DNA from: Spirogloea muscicola | Taxonomy: Eukaryota; Streptophyta; Zygnematophyceae; Spirogloeales; Spirogloeaceae | Direction of reading: 5' to 3' | Length of the DNA stretch: 34,772 nt | Assembly: GCA_009602725.1 (NCBI GenBank) | Contig: WELB01000010.1 | Span: forward strand, 22,234-57,005 | Part shown: positions 1,989 to 27,772 of the stretch, in pieces | Position numbering within the stretch: the first letter of the stretch is position 1 | Layout: every line of letters starts with the position of its first letter | Notes under the pieces: model-generated | Databases searched by the model: none | Seen by the model: the letters and a program-made list of their open reading frames with translations, nothing else | What the model was told of the DNA's origin: nothing | Translations under genes and position numbers: made by a program

Positions 1989-3809
1989 GGCTGCTGATAT
2001 TAAAAAATCGGCTGTAAACTGCCAACCAGATGCATACAGGTGTTCATGACGGAGCCAAAGGCTAGGCAGACAGGGCGCCCTCAATACCCCCGTGTCAGCA
2101 GTAGGAAGTCAGATGAGCTGAGGGGAGGAAGAGCAACCCCGCTGCGCAAACCAGAGGCTGCTACAAGGGCGCGACCAGCCCGGCGATGCAAAGCAATCGC
2201 CTGGGACCGCTGTAGGGACATAGACAAGCGCATACGGTAGCAGGACACAAGACCCAAAGGCACCGAGCCACCGGGAAGGGCTGCACCCCGTTCCCGGCGA
2301 CGCTGGTCAGCTTGAGAGGCCAGCAGCGAAAGTAACGAGGACCACCGACCCCCGTAACACCCATGGATGTCCATGGCCAGGGGGTAAATGGTATCACCCG
2401 CCGGGTGGTCCTTGTACTTGTGCAACTTCTTCCGTTCGGCCACCTTCACGACATAGCCGGTCTCAGAAGTAATGGGGCCCTTCGTCCGGAAGCTGTCGGT
2501 CAAGACGACGTCCATGAGGAGCCGCTTGCCACCTCCCAGGGGGACGCCAACCAGATCGACACGCCTCGTCCGAGGGACCCCGTCGCGGAGTTGGACGGGC
2601 ATCACCCCGGTGCTCTCCAACGCCACTTGATATCCCGCCTCCTCGACGATGCCATACATGGCGTCACGTAGGAGGTTGTGGGAGCCCATGCGCTCATTGC
2701 CTCTGGCACACCTGAGCATGTGGTCACCCATGAGCAATGCATCATGCTCAATAAGCCCACATTCACATTGGGTCACACCCCTGCCAAGCACAGGATTGGT
2801 AAGCCAAGGCCGCAGCGCATAGTATCGCAAAACAAAGCATTTTCCATCCACAAGCCCGCATGCAAAGGCAAAGCGCGGAGCCACTCAGACGCTCCCAGAG
2901 ATGAAACAGATAGGAGCCGAGCCTGGCCTCGAGCATCCCCTTGGAGGATACGCCGGAGATGCTCCAGTGGTTGCTCGTCTGCAGCACGGGAAAACCGCGA
3001 TTGAGCCTTAACATCAGAAACGTCAGCTCAGGCAGAAAAACTACAGGCTCATTCACCAGAGGCGGGCATGCGGCGGAGAGGTCCTGTTGGCATGCTTTGA
3101 GAGTCACTTGGAAAGGCAGACTCCCCTGAACCACGTTACAGATGTGAGTCGCCAATACACGACGTTGCTCAAGGAGGGATCGTCCAGAAATGGACGGAGC
3201 CACTTGAGCCCAGCAGCCAAGGTGCGCTGGTCTGCATAAGCGGACCAAGGGGCGACAACCAAGCCCACCGTGGCGTATGGGCAGCGTACATTGCACCAGT
3301 GCTGCTGGAGACTGCTCTAGGAGTGGGTGAGCAATCGGATCAGCAAGGCATTGCTGAAGCTTGACATCAATGGATGCATAGATAGCATCCAAGCTGACCG
3401 AAAGTGGGACCGTACGCAGGAGGTAGCACGGCCGCTGTGCCACACTCCTGGTCAAAATGGCCACTGCCAACTGAGAGTCTCAATGGCTGGGGAGCTCTGG
3501 CAGGACCTGCATGTATCCTTGGAGACGAGCAAGGACAGCACCCTCCGAGAAAGACGGGTCCCCTAGTGGCACTCCCAAGATCCTCAAGCCGCCCTCTGGA
3601 GTCTGACTAGATGTCGGCAACGAGGGGAAGAGGGAAAGAAGAAGAAAGTGCTCGCCCATTGAGAATAGGGGCTGGAAAAGCCAGCCCAAAAAAGAATCAA
3701 CAAAGGACGAGAAGGGAAAGAGGGATGCCAATGGGGGACCAGGCAGAGCACTTAGCCGGATTGACCCCAAGCCCAAGATAAGCTGGTGCTGAAGCGTGCC
3801 GAAAGCTCA
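1989..3809 (-). mobile_element. Non-LTR retrotransposon copy A, 5'-truncated and decayed
   Basis: This is the minus-strand C-terminal part of a LINE-type polyprotein plus its 3' untranslated region. Near 2700-2770 it encodes a cysteine/histidine cluster beginning CECG and ending H-x3-C. Near 2500-2620 it encodes 'RRVDLVGVP' and 'LLMDVVLTD', whose spaced acidic residues fit the restriction-like endonuclease (PD-(D/E)xK type) at the C terminus of some LINE families. The segment at 2763-3776 matches the region downstream of the reverse transcriptase in copy B. Homology to copy B stops at about 3809, so the reverse transcriptase is missing, as expected from incomplete target-primed reverse transcription. 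Frameshifts and an insertion at 3636-3713 break the frame, so it is not functional. Confidence 0.8.
3636..3713 (+). mobile_element. 78-bp hairpin module inserted into LINE copy A
   Basis: Copy B reads continuously through the equivalent site ('ggggaagagggatgcc'). Copy A is interrupted there by a short form of the hairpin-core repeat. The insert is flanked by 'gggaagaggga' (3625-3635) and 'gggaaagaggga' (3714-3725), an 11-12 bp near-perfect target duplication. It contains the core GGGCTGG-aaaag-CCAGCCC followed by an A-run. This is direct evidence that the short family moves as a unit. Confidence 0.8.
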
Positions 3810-3998
3810 CAAAAGTGGAGAAGTGGAGTAGTGGGTCCCCTGGCCAGAGCCAAAGAGAGAAGCGCGGCCAGATTGACTGGTGGCTGGGAAAGGCCAGCCC
3901 AAAGGAATGGACAAGAACTGAAGGAGCCTGAGTGCGAACGACTAGGACTAAGACATCAGCCAGGGAACGCTTAGTAACCTGCCAGAGCCAGAGCCAAA

Positions 3999-4392
3999 GC
4001 GGCTGCTGATATTAAAGAATCGGCCTGTAAAGTGCCAGCCAGATGCATACAGGTGTTCATGACGGAGCCAAAGGCTAGGCAGACAGGGCGCCCTCAAATC
4101 TTCGTGCCGGCAGAGCCCTCGCTGCTGCCTCTGGCTCTGGCCAGGGGACCCACTTCCTCGAGCCTAGCATCTCCGACTTGCGGCTGCTTAGCAGAGGTCA
4201 CTGAGTGATTCGTAGCTGCTTTGTTTCTCTGTGTGCTTGTTTTTCTTAGCGCTTGCCCTGGCCCCCTTCTCGTACTCTGTTCATTCTTTATTGGGCTGGC
4301 TTTTCCAGCCCCTATTCTCAATGGGCGAGCACTTTCTTCAGTACCTCCGTGTCAGCAGTAGGAAGCCAGATGAGCTGAGGGGAGGAAGAGCA
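3999..4392 (-). mobile_element. 3'-end fragment of the LINE with an embedded reverse-oriented module
   Basis: 3999-4096 matches the LINE 3' untranslated region ('gctgctgatattaaa', 'gttcatgacggagccaaagg'), and about 4345-4392 matches its continuation ('gtcagcagtaggaagccaga'). Between them, about 4097-4345 holds a long-form hairpin module on the opposite strand, ending in 'ctttcttca'. LINE copy B carries a short form of the same module in the same position, while copy A has none there. Similarity ends at about 4392, 247 bases before the receptor kinase start codon. Confidence 0.75.
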
Positions 4393-4525: not shown

Positions 4526-4526
4526 N
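4526..4526. other. Single ambiguous base (n)
   Basis: One undetermined base lies in the GC-rich stretch upstream of the receptor kinase gene. It is outside the predicted coding exons. Confidence 0.99.
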
Positions 4527-4638: not shown

Positions 4639-7600
4639 ATGAGGCGCCCCCGCGGCCTACCGGTCCGGCCGTGCCAGCTGGCGCTGCTCCTCCTCCGCTG
4701 GGCGGTGCTGGCGACGGGAGTTGCCGGCCAGCCCCTGCCGGCCCTCCCCGCCGAGGCCGCGGCGCTGCAGGTGGCCACCTGCACACCGCCTCCCCTCCAT
4801 CTTGGCTTGCCATCCCGCCCTCTCCTCCCCGCTCACCACTACCCCTCTCCCCCTCTCCCTGCTCTCCCCCCCTCCCTCTCCCTCTCTTTCCCTTGGCAAC
4901 TTCCTCCTCATTCTGGCTCAAGCCCGTGCCTGCCCACAGATGTAGATGTCCTTGTCGTTGTGACCAGTCATTTTGGCCCTCTGCCTCAGCTCTGCAAGGG
5001 CGATCCGTAGGGAGCAGGATGGTATAACGCCTTTCAGAAGAGCAAATGCAGACCTGTCCCTGAGTCGCCGTCTGCCCACTGGCGTTGTCAAAATGCAAGT
5101 CCTCACGTGGCCTTCACGGTCACCCGCATGACTGGCTGTGGCGCCCAGGCATTTGGAAAGGTGGTGGGCATAAATGCAGGCAGTGTGGAGCGGTGGCCGG
5201 CACACACAGACCCTTGCCAGCGGCCGTGGCCAGGCATCACGTGCAACGGCAGTAGCGACGCGAATGGAGCGGCCGCCGCGCACGTGGTGGCTGTGTGCCT
5301 CAGTGGCGTGCCTCTGGGCGGGTCGCTGGCGGGCGCCATCAGTGCGCTAACTGCCTTGCTGGCGCTCACCATTCTCAAGCTTACTGCAGCGGGCCTCACC
5401 GGCAACACTCCCTGGCTTGACATTCTCCAGCTGTCCAGCCTCCGTGTGAGCCCAGGATGCTCACCCTCATCGCTACGGCCACTGCTGCAGTCACTGCCGC
5501 ACGGTTGCTGCCGCCAATGGCGCTGCTTGCTGACAGCAGCCATTGTGCTGCATACAGTCGCTGAATCTGAGCAGCAACCAGCTGGAGGGCGTTCTACCGG
5601 GCTTCCTTGCACTCCCGCACCTTGAGGTGCGTGCCCCCCACCTGCCCGCCTGCCGCCACACCTACAAGCCCCACCTGCGGCTGCTTGCTCAATTGCTTGC
5701 TGCTGCTGCTGGCGTGCTGGCGCTGGCGCAGGCGCTAGACGTGAGTGGTAATCGGCTGGCCGGAAGAGTGCCTGCTGGCCTCTCCCTGCTCTCGAGCCTC
5801 ACGGTTCTTTCCTTCTCGTGGTATGCTTGGCCCCGTCTGGCCACCACAACCAGTGTTGTCACTGTTGCCACCGCAGCTGCTGCTCCTGCTGCGCTGCTGG
5901 CCTCTGCACCTGCTCTCGGTTGAGGAGCTCTAGGTGCTTATTGCTGCAGGAATGCAGGCATTGGGGGGCCATTGCCGCCGTCGCTGGGCCAGCTCGGATC
6001 CTTGCAGCGGTTGCGTGCGGCCAGCTGCAACATCAGCGGTAGTGTGCCAGCAGCACTCTTTCCTCGCGGCTCGCGCCTCGTGGAGCTCGATCTCTCCTCC
6101 AATCGCCTGGCGGGGCCGCTGCCCACATCGCTGGCCAATGCAGAGGGCCTCATCAATCTGCGTCTCCAAGGCAATGAGCTCAGTGACGCCATTCCACCAC
6201 AAATTGGCGGACTGCTGCACCTCGGCAACCTTGAGCTGCAGGTGCCTCCTCCCTCTTTCCTTGAGCCAGTTTCTCTTCATAACCAGCAAGCTCGAGCTAA
6301 AACTATTCCTATACTCAGCCCTGTTTGCGCCGAACTGTGCTCCTGCCTCATTGAGCTAAAGGCGAGTCTGCTGTTGAAGTGCACAGGGTAACCGCCTGAC
6401 TGGCCCGCTGCCAGTGGAGATTGCGGGCCTTCCACGCCTTGCTACACTGGACTTACGCTTCAACGATCTCAATGGCACCATACCTCAGGTATTGGCACCC
6501 CTGCAGCCTTCTCCTTGGGAGCAGCCGTAGGAGCTGCGGCGCGATGCAAGCTCTCCGGCACTGCCATGCTGACTTGCCAGAGGGTGAGCATGCAGGGCTT
6601 TGGCAACCCGGCATTCAGTCTTTCGCAGCTGCTGCTCGGTCACAACAGCTTTTCTGGTTTCATCCCAGGTGCTCCATCAGAATTATGCTCAACAGCGCTG
6701 CCAATGGTTCTCCAATACAGTGCGCTGCGCACGAGCAATGCGCAAATTACCTGACAATTGATCCTTGCTGCATGGGCGGCAGTCAACCTTGGATCACTGT
6801 CGCGACTGGCGACGCTGGACCTGTCTCACAATGCCCTTATTGGCACCATCCCGAGCAGCCTCCTCGGGCTCGGCGCTGCCAATGCCGCACCTGTGCAGGT
6901 CCGGCCAGCCCTGCATGTCGACCCAGCTGATTTTGCGTGCCAGTCAGGGGCTGCTGCCGCTGTCGTGAAGCATCGTGGGCTGCTGGTCATTGTTTGACTG
7001 CCAGGCGCTCCTTGATGCGCTTGGCTACACAGCTGGACCTGGCATTTAATCTGCTTAATCTGTCGAGCGCGGTCAACAGTGGCCTTGCCCAGGCTGCAGC
7101 CTTCAACTGCGTAAACGGATCAAGCACCACGTGCTTGCGCTCCTGGGCTCCCGGATTATCGCTTGGCTTCGCTGTCAATGCTGGCGGCCTGGTTCACATG
7201 CGCCAGTGCTTGACGGCAAATGAGCCAGCCTGCCAACCGGCATCGCCGCTCATCTTCAGCGCAGACGACACCTTAAATGCCTCAATTGGCGTGGGCACGA
7301 GTGCTAACATGGACTGGGTGTTGGAGGCCAGCGGCAAGCGCGGCATGGTCGCATCTACGACACGCGCCATTGAAGGAGCTGCTGACAATGTGCTGTACCA
7401 GACATGCCGCATCTCGTCAGATTACCTGGCATACTGCGGGCTGGGGCTTGCCCGCGGCGAGTACGAGGTGCGGCTTCACTTTGCAGAGATCATAGTCGCC
7501 GCACGTGGCCTTCGTGTATTTGATATTATCCTGCAGGGCGTGGTCGTGGCTGCCGGACTTGACATTGTCTTGTCCGCGGGGGGGCCCTTCCGAGCTCATG

Positions 7601-10600
7601 TGCTTACTTTCAATGCTTCTGTGAATGGTACCAATCTTCTGCTTTTAGCTCTGCTCTGCCCTGCTCTGCTTCAGACACTGAACTTCTACAGAATCAACAT
7701 ACCATCTGCTGCACATTTGATCTTGGCTAGCCAGAGGCAGCTGCATCTGCTGAGTACCTCTCCCTGAATTCATCGGTCAGCGACTGGGCTGACCTTGCTG
7801 CCACAGCAACTGCTGTGCTGATCATTGCCATTGTCATCCAGATGGGCTGCTCTGTGTGGAGCTGTATGGGAGGGGCAGGCACGAGGAGCTGCCGGATGGT
7901 GGCCTCTCTGGCCCAATAATCTCAGCTCTGGAAGCGAGCCAGCTCACACCATTTCTGCCGCCGCCATCGCCGCCCCCGCAAGGCCCGCCGCCTGTCGCAG
8001 ACAAGTCCAGCGCAGGGCAGGTGGGCAGCGCCGTTGGGCTCACCATTGGCGCTGTCCTAGGGCTGAGCGCGGCAGTCTTCATCTTTGTCTTCATTCGGCG
8101 GAAGCGCAAGAGCAAGCATGTGAGAAGCCTCTGCTGCAGGCCAGGCCCCAATGTCGCCGTGTTCTGCCTCCACGTGCAATTGCATCCGGTTTAGAGGCTA
8201 CCTTGCATGGTGGCGGGCCTTGTAAAGGTGCCCTACCATCACATACATGAGCATCATCACCTACTTCCATCAATCCCGTGAGCATGGAGGAACCATCTGA
8301 AGAGCTGCATGCTCCAGCTGGGCAGGATGTTTCGTCTGTGCTTGAGCTTGGTACACGGTGCATTGCAGATGGAGAAGCATGGTAAAGGGGACATTGGGCC
8401 AACCTTCTACTCCTTCAAGGAACTGAGAGTTGCCACTGACAACTTCAGGTGCTCTTTGGATGCTGACCAGCTCAATTTTGGTGCTGCTTGATGCCAATTA
8501 TTTCCATTGTGACTGCTTGGTCTGTGGGGTTGCCATCAAGCCGAAGTGGGAATAGTCTTGACTGAAGTTCACCAAGCAGTCCACGAGGGCAGGAGCCAGT
8601 GGACAACCCTCAGCAGAAGCTTTTGATGAGCCTTGCTTTGCCAAGTTGCTTGAAGTCTAAAGCATCCTTGGAATAGCTCACGGTCTTGCTTCACGGTCAC
8701 ACTTCTGACATTGTCATGTCAATCCCTCCCTCCAACCTTGCCCACCACTGGCACGGCTGCTCAGCGAGCAGAACCTGCTTGGGGAAGGAGGCTTTGGTTC
8801 AGTGTACAAGGGCGTGCTGCCAGGCAAGCCCAAGACGGTGGTTGCTGTAAAGTTGCTCAAGCGACCAACAGCAGCGAAGCGCAGCGAGCGCAACCTGATC
8901 GTAGAGGCCCTTCGCAACGAGGTCCTAATCATCTCGGCAGTTCGGCAGGTCTGTGACCATGAGCCTCAACCATCTTCTCAGCTGCGCCTGACGGTCGCAG
9001 TATGTTGGTCGTAGCCCACTCCATCTGATGGATGGCATTCTCACCTTTGAGCTGCTGCAGAGGAACCTGCTGCGGCTGAAGGGGTGCTGCTTTGACGGCG
9101 AGAGCCCCATCCTCGTTTGCGACTTCATGCCGCGGGGTTCACTAGACCACCTGCTGGCTACCAGCACCCTCAGCTGGCCGCTACGCTTTAAAATTGTGCT
9201 CGGCATTGCCCGCGGCCTTCAATACCTGCATGAGGACTCACCGTACCGCATCATCCACCGTGATGTCAAGGTGCGCCTACCACTTTTGTGCTCGCAGGCA
9301 TTACAGGCATTTGTCCCGCTGCCTACTTTCGCCTGCCGTGAGATGCGATCTGAGTTCATCAAATGGTAAGGTAGATAAAATTACTGGATCAATGAAATTG
9401 TTAGGGAATACAGATTGTAGTATTGGATCTTTTGGGTATTGATTGCTCCTGCCCGTCTCCTACTTCACACATGGTTAGTCTTTCGACAGATTTATTGTGC
9501 ATTGAATGCTGTCAAGGTCTCTTCTCAATGGTGTGCCTGATTCGAGATGAGCTCTTGACTATTTATGTAGTATAAGTAATCGCTAACCAACGAAGTCTAC
9601 AGACCCAGTCGATGATCTCAACAGAGGATGTAAAATGCACGTCGTTGATATGTGGAAAGCAAAACCTTGCCTTGGAGAGATTCCTTGAAGATATGTATTG
9701 ACTCTGATTCAAGTGCTTTCAAGCTCTAATCCAATCGGAACAATATAGGTCTGGCTTCTAACCCTTTCTGTGCTTGCTATGTGGATGCTGGCCAATCTGT
9801 CTTGGTCACTGCAGCCTGCGAACATACTTTTGGATGAGGATTGGACACCCAAAATTGCTGACTTTGGCCTGGCGAGGCTCTTTGGAGAGACAGAGACGTT
9901 GGTCATCACTTCCATCATGGGCACCCGTGGATACGTTGCTCCAGGTATGGCCCTCATCTGTGAAGCGGGAGGCTTGTGCTGCATCGCCTCCTGTTCTGGA
10001 GCATATTCTCATAAGAGCTGAGGGCTGACTTTATAGCCACCTGCTTTTGCTTAAGTAGCCATGGGCAACCCCCAATGAGCCATTTTGTTGCTGCCTGTCT
10101 TGCAGAATATGCACTGCAGGGGCAACTGTCAGACAAGGTCGACGTGTATAGCTTTGGTGTGGTGCTGCTGGAGCTGGTGAGCGGAAGGCCGCCCGTTGAC
10201 CATGCGAGGGCGCCTGATCGTGTCCTGCTTGTGGACTGGACGTGGGCACTGCTGCAAGAGGGTCGGCTCGCAGACATCCTGGACCGTGAGCTGCATGGAG
10301 ACTATGCGCCGGACGAAGTTGTGCGTGCTGTCCTGGTGGCTCACTGGTGCACGCAGCAGAATCCTCTCTTGCGGCCTGCCGTCAGCCAGGCGCTGCTCAT
10401 GCTCACTGGCAAGGTGGGCATCCCTGACCTTCCAGCACGCCGACTCTTTGACGAGCTACCTGATGTACCCAACCCATTTGCCGGCGACTTGTGGAAGTCA
10501 CTCCTGTCTGCCGATCTCTCGAGCATGCGAACATCCTTCGATGCTGGTGCTGCGGCTGCAGATAGCTCAGGTTCTGGGTATCACACTCATGCTGCAAATT

Positions 10601-10602
10601 GA
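4639..10602 (+). CDS. LRR-malectin receptor-like kinase (15 exons, predicted 1047 aa)
   Basis: Predicted single-pass plasma-membrane receptor kinase. Exons: 4639-4770, 5149-5445, 5558-5626, 5732-5820, 5950-6241, 6387-6488, 6596-6668, 6783-6898, 7033-7627, 7842-8119, 8369-8448, 8765-8948, 9061-9270, 9815-9944, 10106-10602. Every junction is GT-AG and the phases close to 3144 bases. Seen: an N-terminal signal peptide (about residues 1-30); an LRR N-terminal region with [17 protein letters not shown]; about 11 plant-type LRRs (residues about 115-390, e.g. [13 protein letters not shown]); and a malectin domain (about 410-620, with [13 protein letters not shown] and [11 protein letters not shown]). 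A proline-rich linker follows, then a transmembrane helix (about 653-673) with a basic stop RRKRKSKH. The kinase has the glycine loop GEGGFGSV (714-721), K737, E760, HRD (835-837), DFG (855-857) and APE, so it should be catalytically active and of the RD type. Domain order is that of the land-plant LRR-VIII class. The ligand is unknown. The start is the ATG directly before the signal peptide. The last intron boundaries are the firmest; exon 3 is the least certain. Confidence 0.9.
9271..9814 (+). other. Unusually long AT-rich intron in the kinase domain
   Basis: This 544-base intron separates the HRD-containing exon from the DFG-containing exon. It is the longest intron in the gene and is visibly AT-richer than its neighbours, with several short T/A runs between 9360 and 9720. 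No open frame or known repeat from elsewhere in the window is recognisable in it. It may contain an old insertion. Confidence 0.6.
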
Positions 10603-10626: not shown

Positions 10627-10632
10627 AATAAA
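10627..10632 (+). terminator. AATAAA polyadenylation-type signal
   Basis: AATAAA lies 25 bases after the receptor kinase stop codon, in an A-rich context (cccaaataaaattc). This form is usual in animals and common in land plants, while chlorophyte algae such as Chlamydomonas mostly use TGTAA. A single instance is only weak evidence for the lineage. Confidence 0.4.
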
Positions 10633-18638: not shown

Positions 18639-18786
18639 NNNNNNNNNNNNNNNNNNNNNNNNNNNNNNNNNNNNNNNNNNNNNNNNNNNNNNNNNNNNNN
18701 NNNNNNNNNNNNNNNNNNNNNNNNNNNNNNNNNNNNNNNNNNNNNNNNNNNNNNNNNNNNNNNNNNNNNNNNNNNNNNNNNNNNNN
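18639..18786. other. Assembly gap (148 n)
   Basis: A run of unknown bases follows a (CCG)n-rich stretch, a typical place for short-read assembly to fail. It probably hides the 5' part of exon 1 of the Sgf11-like gene. Confidence 0.99.
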
Positions 18787-20454
18787 GCCGCCGCCGGCCG
18801 TGGCCCAGCCCCCGGCAGCTGCCGGAGCCGCCGCTGCCACCGCCGCCGGCGGCCCTTTCAGCTTCTCGGCCGGCGCCGCGGCTGCCGCTCCCGTGGCTGC
18901 CGCCGCTTGCGGTGACAAGGCGGACGAGGAGATCCGGCGGCTGCAGGCGCAGGTGGAGGCCACGCGGCGCCTGGCGGCCAGCCTCAAGGGGCCGTCCCTT
19001 CCTGGCCAGGTTCTAGTGGCCTCCATCCTTCCAGCAGCTCACGGATTGACTGCATCCCGTGAGCTGCAATGTAGACTTAGTTGCCCCAATCTCGGCGGCC
19101 TGCGGAGCCAGCAGAGCCACTGCCTGACGTGCGACACTGCCGAGTGCTCTTCCCTGCGCAGATTTTGGCTGTCTATGCCGACATCCTCGAGTCGCTCATC
19201 ACGGATGTGGCCGCGGAGGCCCACCGGGCCATCCGCCTCGGGCTGGACCATCGGCTCCACGCCAATGCCGACTGCGAGGACGAGGACAGCATCACGTTCT
19301 GGGGAGGCCAGGCTGCACGCCGGGCACAGGACGCCCAGATGGGCTGCAGCACTGAAGGCGGCAGCAAGCACGCGGTTGACGTCTTTGGCCAGAGCCACCC
19401 GTCCGTCGCCACCGACACCTTCCAGTGCCTGAATTGCGCGCGGCTCGTCACAGCCGGACGCTACGCGCCCCACCTTGAAAAGTGCATGGGCAAGGTCAGT
19501 GCTCAGCATTCCCGCTGCTAAGCCCGCCCCCAAACTTGCGTATGTGGCTCACCCGCTGAGTTGGCCCCCAACATGGCGGCTGAGTCCTCAGTGTTCTGGT
19601 TGAGCTGAATTGGGGCTGGGCACGTGCCATGGCAGGGCCGAAATGCGAGCCGTGTGGCAAATCGGAACCTCCACAGCCAGTCTCACAAGCGCCAGCGGGC
19701 CAGCCCTGCACCATCCACCTTGGTCGGGACGAGTGCTGCTGTCGTCGTTGCAGGAGCGGGCAACGTGGCCAACACGACTCCGGACCTCACCCCGGACGGC
19801 TCCCTTCACAGCAGCCAGGACTTGGGCGATGCAAGCTCCCAGGAGAGCCAGGACGACGAGGCCAAGGTGAACGCTCGCTGCTCCAGTCACGACCTAGTCT
19901 GCCCAACTTCATCGACCATCCTGACCAGCACATCCACAAGAAGTAACATGGGCAGTTTCAGATTTGTAATATGCTTGGGGTGTACTTGCTGACACTTGGT
20001 TGTTCTTGGGTTGAGCATTGCCAATCAGGACATGTCGTATGGTCCACCTGCGCCCGGGAGGATGCAGCAGCAGCGGCGAAGTTCACTTGCACCATCCCGC
20101 AAGCCTCGATTAAGCTTGAACCACCACACCAACCTGCTGGCGTCTGAGCCTCCCATACCCGACTGGCAAGCGCCCAGCAGCACCGAAGACATGCCAGTTC
20201 GACTGACTGGTAGTTGCTTCTCTGCCGTCTTGCAGCCGCTTTCAGGGGTTGTCGTGTGGTCTGAGCATGCAGCAATTGACCTGCCTGCCCCAGGGTCCTG
20301 CGGACCTGCTGATGGCAGAGCATTCACTGTTGAGCTTGTAGGTAACAGCCTTGAACCGGGAGTCCGAAGGAGCAAATGCGACACTGCCGTCACTGCGGTT
20401 GGAGAGAGGGACCGCAGCCCGTACCTTGCATCCCCCCAGGCCTCTGGCTGAGGG
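18787..20454 (+). CDS. SGF11: SAGA-associated factor 11-like protein (5' end in gap)
   Basis: Subunit of the deubiquitinating module of the SAGA co-activator, which removes ubiquitin from histone H2B in the nucleus. Exons, all phase 0: (gap)-19009, 19162-19494, 19636-19866, 20029-20454. The first visible exon is alanine-rich and then helical (EIRRLQAQVEATRRLAASL). Exon 2 continues the helix (YADILESLITDVAAEAHRAI), which in the family packs against Ubp8/Sus1/Sgf73. It ends in the diagnostic zinc finger CLNCARLVTAGRYAPHLEKC with C-x2-C...H-x3-C complete. Exon 3 opens with GRNASRVANRN, the usual basic tail after the finger. About 60 residues rich in acidic and polar amino acids lie between helix and finger. 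Exon 4 carries a long unrecognised polar tail, and its end as a single exon is uncertain. Confidence 0.88.
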
Positions 20455-21479: not shown

Positions 21480-23427
21480 TCAGAGTATTGTGCACGTTCC
21501 AGAAGAGCGGCCCTCTGGGCCTCTCGCAGGCCGGGAGCCTGCCTGGGCAGCCAGTCTACCTCCTTCAGCATTGTACGTGAACTCATTTGTGTCCAGCCCA
21601 TACTGCAAGGAGCAGCCCGACATGGCACAGTCAGGTGTGCAAGGCGACAGCATCGAGCGGTCCAGCCTCAAGCACGGATCACTAGGTCAATGAGCAAGAC
21701 ATGATGCCTGAGTGAGTGGAGCCGCAGGATCTGAAGTGGCTTGCATCGAGCTAGCCAGCACCTCACACTCAAAAGCACACCTTGTCGAGCATGCGCGTTC
21801 GCCAGGGGTCAGTCTTGCCGGCACTCCTAGGGTCGGCGGCACTTGCTGTCGGCGGCAACGATGCCACATGGGCAGGCGCCGCGGCCTGACGCGGCAACAG
21901 CGGCTGCCTTCCTGCGGGTCGAAGGTACTCGTCATCCTCGTCCTCAAAGTGCCTCCTGCCATCCTGCATAGCCCGCAGCGTCATCGCCAGCAGGAGTGCA
22001 AGGACCTGTTCACAAGGCATGGTGAGGCCCGAGGCCTAAGTCAGAAACAAGCCCAGTCCACCAGCACGTGGCTAGCAGGCTGTGCTGCGCGCTTCTGCAG
22101 GACCTTGTTAATGAAAGAGGGTCCAACACATGTGTCATGTTTAGCTTGCAGCAGCGCTCCAGTCGTAATCACCTCAAGGCTGATAATGGCAAGGCCAACC
22201 CACTTGCAAATCTCCAGGTTTTGGAGAACAAACTCCTTGGTGTGCTCCAGCTCTCCTGTGGGGTCATCGGGCAGGTCCTGCACAGATACCAACGAGCATT
22301 GGCGATGAGCTGAGGCATGTACGCCAGCCATGGCCGAACAGCAAGTCAGTGGTCGTTCTCCAGCACTTGCAGCCAGAGCTCTGCATCTCCTGTGGTGCAT
22401 AGAGGATCACTAGGGAGCACAGATTGTCAGGCCACGCAGACGCTGGCTGTTGCTGGCCGTCTCTACTTGTAACATAGGTACAGCACTGGCTTGCATGACA
22501 CGCACGACAGCCTCCATGTTGACTCACGAGGCCATAGGCAAAGGCTCTTGCTGCAAAAGCACTCACCCTCTCCCACGACCTGTCAAGGTAAAGTGCCGCG
22601 GCAATGGTGCCCTGAAGGAGCAGCAGGACGCCCAAGCCGAATGTGTACTGCATATAGAACAGCAGGTGGACTGCCAAGTCAGGAGCTGGGGCCACTCTGA
22701 GGCACTCATCCTGCGCATGATCAGACTGACCAACTGGGCTTGACGACCTAACCCACGACCGATGTACCGAAAGACCATCCGACTGTCCGCGTGTGCGTTC
22801 CAAGAGATGCCAGCAGCACTTGCTTTGACTTGACAGAAGCGGGCATGCGTGAGGACAACAAGAGGAGCAGTGAATCGGAGCGAGGAGAGGGGAAGACGTT
22901 ACGCAGGAGAGGCAGCATGCATGGCCGCTCTCGCCGGCGACCGCACCGATGAAGGTAACGCAGGCGATGAAGACGCCGGCTCCCAGGAAGGCGTAGATGA
23001 ACCTGGAAATGGCTGGCAGGCATGAGCTGAGCCAGCTGGCAGAGGCAGGGCATGCTTGGCTGCGGCCATCGCGGCACTGATTGCAACACGCTGCGGCAGC
23101 TGACTTAGGTCGCGGGAAAGGGAGGAAGGCAAGTGAGCACCAGGGCTTGGGGAGCTCGAAGCGCGGCTCGTCAGAGCCAAGTGCGTCCACCGGGCTGCTC
23201 ACACTGCCCAGCCTGCCCTTGGTGAGGGCGGCGAGGAAGGAGGGGCCCACGGGGACGGAGAAAGGTCCCGCTGGGACGGCAACAGCGGCGGCGACGTCGT
23301 CGGGGTCGGTGTGCCGGTTGTACTCGCCGAGCATCCAGACGGCGTACACGACGGCAAGCACACCGGCGAGCGCCAGGAAGAAGTTGGCCAGCTTCAGCGT
23401 GCACAGCAGAAAGCCCTGGCAGCCCAT
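21480..23427 (-). CDS. TOM2A: TOM2A-like tetraspanin membrane protein (6 exons, 306 aa)
   Basis: Homologue of the plant four-span protein TOM2A, a tonoplast tetraspanin-like protein known in Arabidopsis as a host factor interacting with TOM1. Exons: 23141-23427, 22903-23002, 22567-22647, 22173-22277, 21781-22005, 21480-21602. Phases close to 921 bases and all introns are GT-AG. Seen: N-terminal MGCQGFLLCTLKLANFFLAL with the first membrane span (about 10-33); spans 2 (about 96-120), 3 (about 130-150) and 4 (about 182-201); a small loop with CCLSC; and a cytosolic tail with the family signatures EDEDDEYLRP, KTDPWRTRM and YGLDTNEFTYN. It ends in CTIL, a CaaX-type prenylation box. The Arabidopsis protein is about 280 residues, so the length fits. 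The normal cellular role is poorly defined. Confidence 0.93.
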
Positions 23428-23630
23428 CGTGCCACAGCGACGCCAGCGGAGGCTGTAGCGGCGGCAACGACGGCGGCGGCAGCGGCAGCAGCGGCGGCGG
23501 CGCGAGGGCCGCGCCGCCGGGAACCGGGAGGACGGGTGGTAGTTTGGGAGATGAGAGCGACTGCCGAAGAGACGGCTGCGAAATAACGGCTGCGTAAGCC
23601 AGCAATTTTCACATGGACGGAGTTGGAGTT
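23428..23630 (-). promoter_or_regulatory. GC-rich 5' flank of the TOM2A-like gene
   Basis: Immediately upstream of the start codon lies a GCC/GGC-rich tract (about 23455-23520) that gives long spurious alanine- or arginine-rich frames on both strands. It is probably the 5' untranslated region. The repeat field begins at about 23700, roughly 270 bases upstream of the start. Confidence 0.45.
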
Positions 23631-23699
23631 GCATTTACAGCGGGGAAACTACAACCTACAGGGAGAAAGTGAAACCAAGAGGGAAAGGATTTCGCACAA

Positions 23700-24155: not shown

Positions 24156-24357
24156 GCCGGCCCGCAGGCGCAGCGCGCGGGACACTGACCGCTGCAGCGA
24201 GACGGCCAAGCGCATCCGGTACACCTGCGCTAGCGACCAGGCTGCAGGAACAAAGCGGCTGCTGATATATTTTAGAATTGGCTGTAAACTGCCAGCCAGC
24301 TGCATACAAGGTGTTCATGACGGAGCCAAAGGCTAGGCAGACAGGGAGCCCTCAATC

Positions 24358-24432
24358 TCTTACTCCGTTCATTCTTTTTTGGGCTGGCTTATCCAGCCCC
24401 TATCCTCAATGGGCGAGCACTTTCTTCAATAT
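24358..24432 (-). repeat. Short hairpin module embedded in the 3' end of LINE copy B
   Basis: The reverse orientation of the short module ('tttgggctggcttatccagc', then 'gggcgagcactttcttcaat') interrupts the LINE 3' region between 'gccctcaat' and 'cccgtgtcagcag'. Copy A is continuous at this point. TCAAT occurs on both sides, consistent with a short target duplication. The same site is occupied at about 4097-4345 by the long form. Confidence 0.75.
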
Positions 24433-25454
24433 CCCGTGTCAGCAGTAGGAGGTCAGATGAGCTGAGGGGAGAACGAGCAACCCCGCTGCGCAAACCAGAG
24501 GCTGCTGCAAGGGCGCGACCAGCCCGGCGATGCAAAGCAATCGCCTGGGGCCGCTGTAGGCACATAGATAAACGCATTCGGTAGCAGGAAACAAGACTCG
24601 AAAGGCACCGAGCCACTGGGAAGGGCTGCACCCTGTTCCCGGCGTCGCTGGTCAGCTTAAGAGGCCAGCAGCGTAAGTAATGAGGACCACCAACCCCCGT
24701 AACACCCATGGATGTCCATGGCCAGGGGGTAAATGGTATCACCCGCCGGGTGGTCCTTGTACTTGTGCAACTTCTTCTGTTCGGCCACCTTCATAGCCGG
24801 TCTCAGAAGTAATGGGGCCCTTCGTCCGGAAGCTGTCAGTTAGGACGACGTCCATGAGGAGCCGCTTGCCACCTCCCAGGGGGACGCCAACCAGATCGAC
24901 ACGCCTCGTCCGAGGGACCCCTCGCAGAGTTGGACGGACATCACCCCGGTGCTCTCCAACGCCACTTGATATCCCGCCTCCTTGACGATGCCATACATGG
25001 CGTCACGTAGGAGGTTGTGGGAGCCCGTGCGCTCACTGCCTCTGGCACACCTGAGGATGTGGTCACCCATGAGCAATGCATCATGCTCAATAAGCACACA
25101 TTCACATTAGGTCACCCCTGCCAAGCACAGGGATGGTAAGCCAAGGCGGCGGCGCATAGAATCGCAAAACAGAGCATATTCCATCCGCAAGCCCGCATGC
25201 AAAGGCAAAGCGCGGAGCCACTCAGACGCTCCCAGAGACGTAACAGATAGGAGCCGAGCCTGGCCTCGAGCATCCCCTTCGAGGAGACTCCGGAGATGCT
25301 CCAGTGGTTGCTCGTCTGCAGCACCGGAAAACCGCGATTGAGCCTTAACATCAGAAACGTCAGCCCAGGCAGCAAAACGAACAGGCTCATTCACCAGAGG
25401 CGGGCATGCGGCAAAGAGGTCCTGTTGGCATGCTTTGAGAGTCACTTGGAAAGG

Positions 25455-25532
25455 CAGACTCCCCTGAACCATGTTACAGATGTGAGGCGCCAACAGACTC
25501 CCCTGAACCACGTTACAGACGTGAGGCGCCAA
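25455..25532 (-). repeat. 39-bp in-frame tandem duplication in LINE copy B
   Basis: 'cagactcccctgaacc' begins at 25455 and again at 25494. The two 39-base units differ by a few bases. Copy A has one unit. The duplication adds 13 codons without shifting frame, so it could date from a time when the element was still translated. Confidence 0.75.
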
Positions 25533-27772
25533 TACACGTTGTTGCTCAAGGAGGAATCGTCCAGATATGGACGGAGCCACTTGAGCCCAGCAGCCAAGGT
25601 ACGCTGGTCTGCATAAGCGGACCAAGGGGCGACAACCAAGCCCACCGTGGCGTATGGGCAGCGTACATTGCACCAGTGCTGCTGGAGACTGCTCTAGGAG
25701 TGGGTGAGCAATCGGATCAGCAAGGCATTGCTGAAGCTTGACATCGATGGATGCATAGATAGCATCCAAGCTGACCGACGGTGGGACCGTACGCAGGAGG
25801 TAGCACGGCCGCTGTGCCAAACTCCTGGTCAAAATGGCCACTGCCAACTGAGAGTCCCCGAGGCTGGGGAGCTCTGGCAGGACCTGCATGTATCCTTGGA
25901 GACGAGCAAGGACAGCACCCTCCGAGAAAGACGGGTCCCCTAGTGGCACTCCCAAGATCCTCAAGCTGCCCTCTGGGGTCTGACAAGATGTCGGCAACGA
26001 GGGGAAGAGGGATGCCAATGGGGGACCAGACAGAGCACTTAGCCGGATTGACCCCAAGCCCGATAAGCTGGAGCTGGTGCTGAAGCGTGCCGAAAGCTCG
26101 CAGCACCTCCTCTGGGGGGCCGAGGAGCGTGGGTGGTATCATCCGCATAGCTCGAGAGGAGAACGCCAGGGTGAGCGCTCGCCGTGTTGCGCAAAGCACG
26201 GTGATGCGCCAGAGCGAAGAGGAAACCACCCATCGGATCACCTTGGCGTGTCCCCGTCTTTGACTGCAGAACAGCCAAAGAAGTCCCTGCCCCCCACAAC
26301 AATGCAGATGGCGAGCCATACATGCAGCGGAAGTGAGGGAGGAGGGTGGGAAAGTACTGCCTTAGCTCCTCGGCAAGAACCTGCTGATCCACGGAGTTGA
26401 AGGCGTTCTGTACGTCCACGCTCAAGGCCAGCCAATGGGGGTTGACATCCAGTGCCGCTCGTACCCCGTGCACTAGGGTCTCCGCGCCAGCACGCATCCC
26501 AGCCCCATACTGGTGGGGATGGAAGTGCGCCTGGGCATCGTCCTGGATCTGCATGATCAGGGTGCGCCCCACGAGGCGCGACAGAACCTCCCCCATCGAG
26601 ATAGGACGCACTCCCCCACTGTCCTTCTGCAAAGCAATGAGATTGCTTGTGCAGAGGACTGCGCCTATGCGATGGGTGAGGTGTCCGCGCGCAACGTTTG
26701 CGCGACCCTAAGCAGCAGATCGAAATTTTCCGAGTCGTCCTCCCCATAGAGCTCCAGCAAGTGCTCAAAGAGCATGCCCTATGGACCCCAGGCGACTGCC
26801 TTGCGGCTACTCACAATTGCCCGACGGAAGACTGCCGGGTCCAGGTCCACCGGTTGAGCAGGCGTGAAGCTCTCCATCCATGTATCTACTCTTCGCGGGG
26901 CCGGAAGATGGAGCTGCTCGAGTGCGGCCAAGGTTGCCGCATCATGTGGTGCTGGTGTGGAGGGCTCCAAGGCTTGAGCAGCACTGGCAAGGTCGCCGGC
27001 TCGGCCAAATTGGATGGCACGTCGCTTGCCCGCCTCCTTGATATCCATTACCGACATGGTGGGCGGATAGTTGGCTTGCGCGAGTTGGGCAGCCGCTTGG
27101 TGCTTTGCAAGTAGCAGCTGCCACTCCCCACCTTCAAAGAGGTGGAGGCGCAGCAGCAGCTCCTTGCGACCTGCCTTCCCCTGCGGCAGGCGACCAAGCA
27201 AGAGTCGCGGAAACAACACAAACACACATGCAGCCTCATCCTCGCTGTCACGAGCCAGACGTGTCAGGAGGGGCCGAAGGGCTCGCCGTGTGTTGGGCCG
27301 GGCCCAACACGGGATGTGTCGTAGGAGCTGCGCGTTGGTCGTCTGCAGGATCTCGGAGACGTGCACGCTCTCCGCCCACCGCCAGTGTTCTGCCGTAGGC
27401 CCTGGTGGTGGTGTTGGCATCGCCCCTCTTGTAGCCGGAGCCGCAGGGCTGCGCGGACAAGGCCCTCTCATTCGGCCTTCCAGCAGACCTGGGCATGCCG
27501 GCAGCTTCAGGTCAGAGCTCACACTAGCGCCCCTGACGCCCCCGCCGCTCCCGCCCCCGCCGCCGCCGCCGCCGCCTGCGGCGCGGCCGGCCGAGGCTGG
27601 TGCCCGCGCTCAGAGTGCTGCGGCGGGGCCGCCAGTAAGCCGCAGCACTACGGGCCCTGCTCGCGGCAGCACCCTGGGCCGCCAGCAGCAGCCGCCGCCA
27701 CTCGTGGGATTATCTCCCGCGGCTCTGAGCTCTCAGTCCCGCCGCCGCAGTCCTCGGCCTTCTGCAGAAGCG

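Follow-up and report, generated by a model that had tools for sequence, protein, structure and literature searches.

Receptor kinases of the land-plant LRR-VIII class, such as CORK1 and RFK1 (the latter presumably a member), carry leucine-rich repeats (LRRs), a malectin domain, a transmembrane (TM) stretch and an RLK/Pelle kinase, in this order. The CrRLK1L kinases (FERONIA) and SYMRK share the RLK/Pelle kinase and have differently arranged malectin-like domains; PF12819 is the malectin-like domain of the CrRLK1L kind. RFK1 has 13 LRRs, with malectin between the LRRs and the TM stretch (PMC10868138), and CORK1 is named among the LRR-RLK-VIII/Xa members (PMC9579050). CORK1 is needed for the cellotriose responses of Arabidopsis, and two Phe residues of its malectin are required (PMC9563578).

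Among 38 genomes, which included two core chlorophytes, two prasinophytes, one Klebsormidium and one Chara, malectin was reported only from embryophytes and the red alga Porphyra (PMC6362431). According to a review, RLKs occur in 9 of 18 chlorophytes, with one to four per genome and no monophyly, LRR and C-Lec receptors are traced to Mesostigma and Chlorokybus, and malectin ranks with the major domain families of Chara; the review names no LRR-malectin receptor in any chlorophyte or early streptophyte (PMC10868138). The two sources disagree on malectin in Chara, and such surveys therefore miss cases. Chlamydomonas has four RLKs, of C-Lec, L-Lec and RLCK kinds (PMC10152718). Secreted LRR proteins are named for Trebouxia A48, with no mention of a receptor or kinase in the accessible text, and the accessible parts of the Mesostigma and Chlorokybus genome papers do not mention malectin or leucine-rich proteins. 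Nothing on algae turned up in PMC9579050, nor anything on LRR-malectin proteins in PMC8269361, and PMC9678776 offered general information on flavin enzymes. No announcement of an LRR-malectin kinase in a chlorophyte was found among the titles and abstract beginnings listed, a scope that does not prove that none has been published. The initial sequence-only reading had expected chlorophytes to lack this architecture, which agrees with the survey and the review as far as their few chlorophyte species go.

The window, meaning the whole analysed stretch of 34,772 nt, carries a receptor gene at 4639-10602 on the forward strand. It has 15 exons, all 14 introns are GT-AG, and all joins are in phase. 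Exon borders were set by eye and then checked by script, which bore out the 15 in-phase exons of the sequence-only reading, and the gene ends are also the same. The exons and the parts of the protein encoded by them are as follows.

4639-4770 (+), exon 1: putative signal peptide (by eye), start of the LRR N-cap
5149-5445 (+), exon 2: most of the LRRNT_2 cap (3.4e-5), LRRs 1-2
5558-5626 (+), exon 3: LRR 3, a single repeat of 69 nt
5732-5820 (+), exon 4: LRR 4 and the start of LRR 5 (LRR 5 by eye)
5950-6241 (+), exon 5: LRRs 5-8, start of LRR 9
6387-6488 (+), exon 6: LRRs 9-10
6596-6668 (+), exon 7: LRRs 10-11
6783-6898 (+), exon 8: LRRs 11-12
7033-7627 (+), exon 9: LRR-like cap, most of the PF11721 malectin
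7842-8119 (+), exon 10: last part of malectin, proline-rich linker, TM stretch with RRKRK after it
8369-8448 (+), exon 11: juxtamembrane part, start of the kinase
8765-8948 (+), exon 12: glycine loop of the kinase
9061-9270 (+), exon 13: kinase up to HRDVK (RD kinase)
9815-9944 (+), exon 14: DFG, activation segment up to VAP
10106-10602 (+), exon 15: C-lobe of the kinase, C-terminal tail, TGA stop

The joined coding sequence is 3144 nt long and encodes 1047 aa, with the terminal TGA as its only stop; the other five frames of the joined sequence hold 13-52 stops each. From base composition, 1047 stop-free codons have a chance of about 2e-14, a figure that ignores the freedom of choosing splice sites by eye and in this differs from the E-values of the domains, which are independent of that choice. 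The ATG at 4639 is the first in frame, and a TGA in the same frame precedes it by 21 nt. Introns are 105-544 nt long (n = 14), and 13 of them have G+C content of 51-71%, with one at 43%. All 14 acceptors are CAG without a pyrimidine tract; the acceptors of land plants differ from these. An AATAAA at 10627-10632 (+), 25 nt past the stop and one of two on the forward strand of the window, is the candidate polyadenylation signal. The Cys codon is TGC in 15 of 16 cases, and several other amino acids are only mildly biased in codon use. Searches by blastn and tblastn found no further copy of the gene elsewhere in the window, and the window had no tRNA or Rfam match.

Nine Pfam families matched the 1047-aa protein at E<=0.01, namely Pkinase, PK_Tyr_Ser-Thr, LRR_1, Malectin PF11721, LRR_8, LRR_4, LRR_14, LRR_6 and LRRNT_2. 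LRRNT_2 lies at residues 37-77 (3.4e-5); LRR_1, LRR_8 and LRR_4 scored 5.9e-21 (LRR_1) to 2.1e-15, Malectin PF11721 is at residues 498-617 (2.2e-20), and Pkinase is at 708-922 (6.9e-45), with PK_Tyr_Ser-Thr at 2.9e-39. The domain search suggested with the sequence-only reading thus returned LRR, Malectin and Pkinase in receptor order. PF12819 is not among the nine families, and the malectin is of the PF11721 kind, as in LRR-VIII; the CrRLK1L ectodomain, with PF12819 and without LRRs, is not the one found here. A consensus scan identified 11 LRRs with at least 7 of 9 positions, and a further repeat with an insertion at about 188-212, recognized by eye and missed by the scan, raises the total to 12, compared with about 11 estimated from the letters and 13 in RFK1. 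A 6-of-9 match at 407 was taken as false. The strongest hydrophobic 19-mer of the protein, at 655-673, lies between malectin and kinase where a transmembrane helix had been predicted; RRKRK follows at 674, and a proline-rich linker separates the hydrophobic stretch from malectin. The putative signal peptide was recognized by eye only, from a basic start and a hydrophobic stretch at about 14-29 that contains one Arg. Eight N-glycosylation sequons are present within the first 640 residues. The kinase keeps the glycine loop (714), VAVK (734), HRD (835, in HRDVK), DFG (855) and APE (881), which is consistent with an intact RD kinase, and by frame, domains and catalytic motifs the gene appears complete and intact, both as first read. 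The order LRR, malectin, TM, kinase is that of the LRR-VIII class; Pfam, hydrophobicity and the LRR scan agree in this with the first description.

When the kinase domain was compared with PDB sequences, 245 distinct matches were obtained at 1e-20, and the best 60 of them are considered here. Fifty-nine of these 60 are receptor-like kinases (including receptor-like cytoplasmic ones) or IRAKs, if 8hoa, 8hod, 5xd6, 2qkw and 3hgk, which have generic names, are presumed, in part from their alignment, to belong here. BAK1 is the best match (7.4e-69, 235.5 bits); a lectin-RLK matched at 1.2e-61, FER at 2.3e-54 and SYMRK at 2.8e-51. The only other entry among the 60 is an EGFR entry (5e-36, 127.8 bits). 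By this similarity ranking, not by a tree, the kinase falls into the RLK/Pelle family, in agreement with the sequence-only reading. No kinase named as LRR-VIII is among the best 60 of the 245 matches. In a scan with a single protein, which reaches close relatives only, three stretches of viral contigs and 14 of genome contigs matched the kinase pattern, and none was confirmed.

The malectin region had six PDB matches at E<=1. The best is 9hhu_A (1.2e-13), followed by four malectins at 3.8e-6 to 1.2e-5, and the sixth is weak and unrelated. The PDB names 9hhu_A, a chain of 618 residues matched on the ectodomain only, as a 'non-specific serine/threonine protein kinase'; we infer a plant LRR-malectin receptor from its match, which spans 168-591 of the 595-aa ectodomain. 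The whole ectodomain had 134 PDB matches at 1e-10. Most of the best 60 of these are LRR receptors with long arrays, GSO1 is first and 9hhu_A is in row 41, as the one entry aligned through both LRRs and malectin. Many LRR receptors lacking malectin outscore it over the ectodomain, and we attribute this to the greater length of their LRR arrays. Phe residues in FAEI and RxFD motifs are kept in the window malectin as F540 and F553, with a spacing of 13 here and 19 in 9hhu, and by motif and spacing in 9hhu they may be the CORK1 pair, although they may also be the wrong pair. The structure 2jwp, which we take to be Xenopus malectin, has Phe in both columns aligned with F540 and F553. The CORK1 pair is stated not to be conserved in Xenopus (PMC9563578), and set against the 2jwp residues, this means that the pair may be misassigned. 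Two things are unlike land-plant LRR-VIII receptors, namely the alga-like genome and the shorter loop between the two Phe.

Malectin-domain relatives are also known from animals and bacteria. In scans reaching close relatives only, nine stretches of viral contigs matched the malectin pattern and none was confirmed, while one of 76 stretches of genome contigs was confirmed, as a bacterial malectin. It belongs to a 3058-aa Anaerolineaceae ORF (L001, 129-9305), with a malectin 33% identical to that of the window; no LRR or kinase was seen in this ORF on inspection by eye.

Downstream of the receptor, a gene with HAD-type and riboflavin kinase domains, in order on one strand, extends from 27773 to about 30848 (+) in about ten pieces, as read from the translated pieces only. 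Pfam gave Flavokinase at 2.3e-7 and HAD-type Hydrolase at 1.2e-5, the latter with 26.2 bits, 0.2 bits under the cut-off of 26.4. A riboflavin kinase, presumably the human one, matched the kinase part at 8e-42. Fusions of FMN hydrolase and riboflavin kinase are described from land plants, Chlamydomonas, Coccomyxa and Ostreococcus, and most eukaryotes have plain riboflavin kinase (PMC2972280). The predicted neighbour combines both parts of this fusion and points to a Viridiplantae host. A gap of 148 N at 18639-18786 lies between it and the receptor, and a single N at 4526 lies between the receptor and the left copy of a retroelement. The two copies of this element, at 2081-3635 and 24426-27609 (-), stand on either side of the N gap and are 92.6% identical over 1596 nt; the family is LINE-like by eye, with RVT_1 (2.2e-15) in the right copy, and the left copy seems shorter. 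Adjoining the left copy at 1637-2330 is a tandem duplication of a 352-nt unit with 96% matches, and related copies are near 3997-4097 and 24253-24673. A gene for the SAGA-associated protein Sgf11 is at about 19170-20451 (+), with a Pfam match at 19411-19494 (7.9e-14) and its end at 20451 a guess; the N gap is just upstream of it, possibly within its 5' part. A stop-free frame of 456 aa at 22267-23634 (-) had no Pfam match at 0.05 and may resemble a plant tetraspanin/TOM2A homologue.

The word TGTAA is absent from the 600 nt past the stops of all three genes compared (receptor, riboflavin kinase gene and candidate Sgf11), against a chance expectation of about 0.4 per 600 nt; the next one is 1375 nt past the receptor stop, and 621 and 680 nt past the other two. 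Among 12 green algae, UGUAA is the top word in seven of eight chlorophytes, averaging about 60% of 3' ends; it is also over-represented, though not positioned, in all four streptophytes studied; positioned AAUAAA is found only in Mesostigma, at 19% (PMC1868727). The AATAAA past the receptor stop and the lack of TGTAA are a weak sign against a core chlorophyte, from only three genes, whose 3' UTRs may reach beyond the 600 nt. Mesostigma has a mean intron of 1142 nt (PMC6947507), unlike the receptor introns. The genome had been called alga-like, a view that fits the HAD/riboflavin kinase neighbour and the CAG acceptors without a tract, and a green-algal host is most likely.

The malectin comparisons bear on convergence, in which an algal RLK/Pelle kinase would have gained LRRs and malectin independently of land-plant LRR-VIII, giving a receptor of LRR-VIII-like working and other origin. 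In BLASTP, the window malectin scored 69.7 bits against the 9hhu segment (31% identity over 144 aa), 67.8 bits against the Anaerolineaceae MAG malectin (33% over 133) and 48.1 bits against 2jwp. The first two scores are nearly equal, which favours convergence, and plant-type descent of the malectin module is therefore not shown by them. Convergence is also favoured by the lack, in both the window malectin and the 2jwp segment, of a loop of six residues that the 9hhu segment has (the bacterial malectin has seven residues there), and by the patchy, non-monophyletic occurrence of chlorophyte RLKs (PMC10868138). Against this, the 9hhu segment is far closer to the window malectin than to the bacterial one (39.3 bits) or 2jwp (34.7 bits), the sole LRR-malectin receptor among the six malectin PDB matches ranks best, and the module order is the same as in the known plant class. 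The window malectin is intermediate in similarity, and its descent from a plant-type module is likely, not proved; independent assembly of the receptor is rather unlikely.

Exon 9 holds the LRR-like cap together with most of malectin, and exon 10 the end of malectin together with the TM stretch, in both cases without a break. TM and kinase are joined across the intron at 8120-8368, so their link rests on a splice call, and the locus could be read as two genes, one for an LRR-malectin-TM receptor-like protein and another for a cytoplasmic kinase that begins with the ATG at 8369. That ATG is the first codon of exon 11, unspliced read-through of exon 10 stops after 24 further codons, and a TGTAA lies at 8221 inside the intron. 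This word is found 23 times on the forward strand of the window, so a single match is weak, and the intron resembles its neighbours, with a GT donor, TGCAG as acceptor and a join in phase 0. As RRKRK directly follows the TM stretch and the kinase comes next, in receptor order, a split into two genes is very unlikely. Recent horizontal transfer from a land plant, or contamination by one, is extremely improbable: the domain order is plant-like, but the acceptors have no pyrimidine tract, the introns are mostly G+C-rich as given above, one retroelement family has copies both before the gene and on the far side of the N gap, and identity to the 9hhu malectin segment is only about 31%.

The in-phase model of 15 exons and the Pfam domains in receptor order together indicate one LRR-malectin receptor kinase. 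The gene very probably encodes a functional single-pass receptor of LRR-VIII architecture in a green alga, and by its predicted domains it is another LRR-malectin receptor kinase, a kind already known. The putative signal peptide would provide for the entry of the protein, with the plasma membrane as its probable location. The LRR-malectin part would bind a ligand derived from the wall or the surface, which by analogy with Arabidopsis CORK1, the best functional analogue, may be an oligosaccharide. Binding would bring the kinases together, leading to trans-phosphorylation and an inward signal.

The wider question touched by this gene is when the architecture of plant receptor kinases was assembled. 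In a charophyte near land plants, an LRR-malectin receptor gene is expected and would be of little interest; the gene would matter if its host is a chlorophyte or an early streptophyte. It is proposed tentatively, at somewhat less than an even chance, that the LRR-malectin receptor kinase predates land plants and arose outside the surveyed lineages, with an early streptophyte of the Mesostigma/Chlorokybus grade or an early-branching chlorophyte or prasinophyte as host. A complete receptor of this kind in an earlier branch would date the fusion earlier and allow it to be tested in a simple alga. If the proposal holds, extracellular sensing by LRR-malectin receptors would be older than the multicellular plants rich in cell wall.
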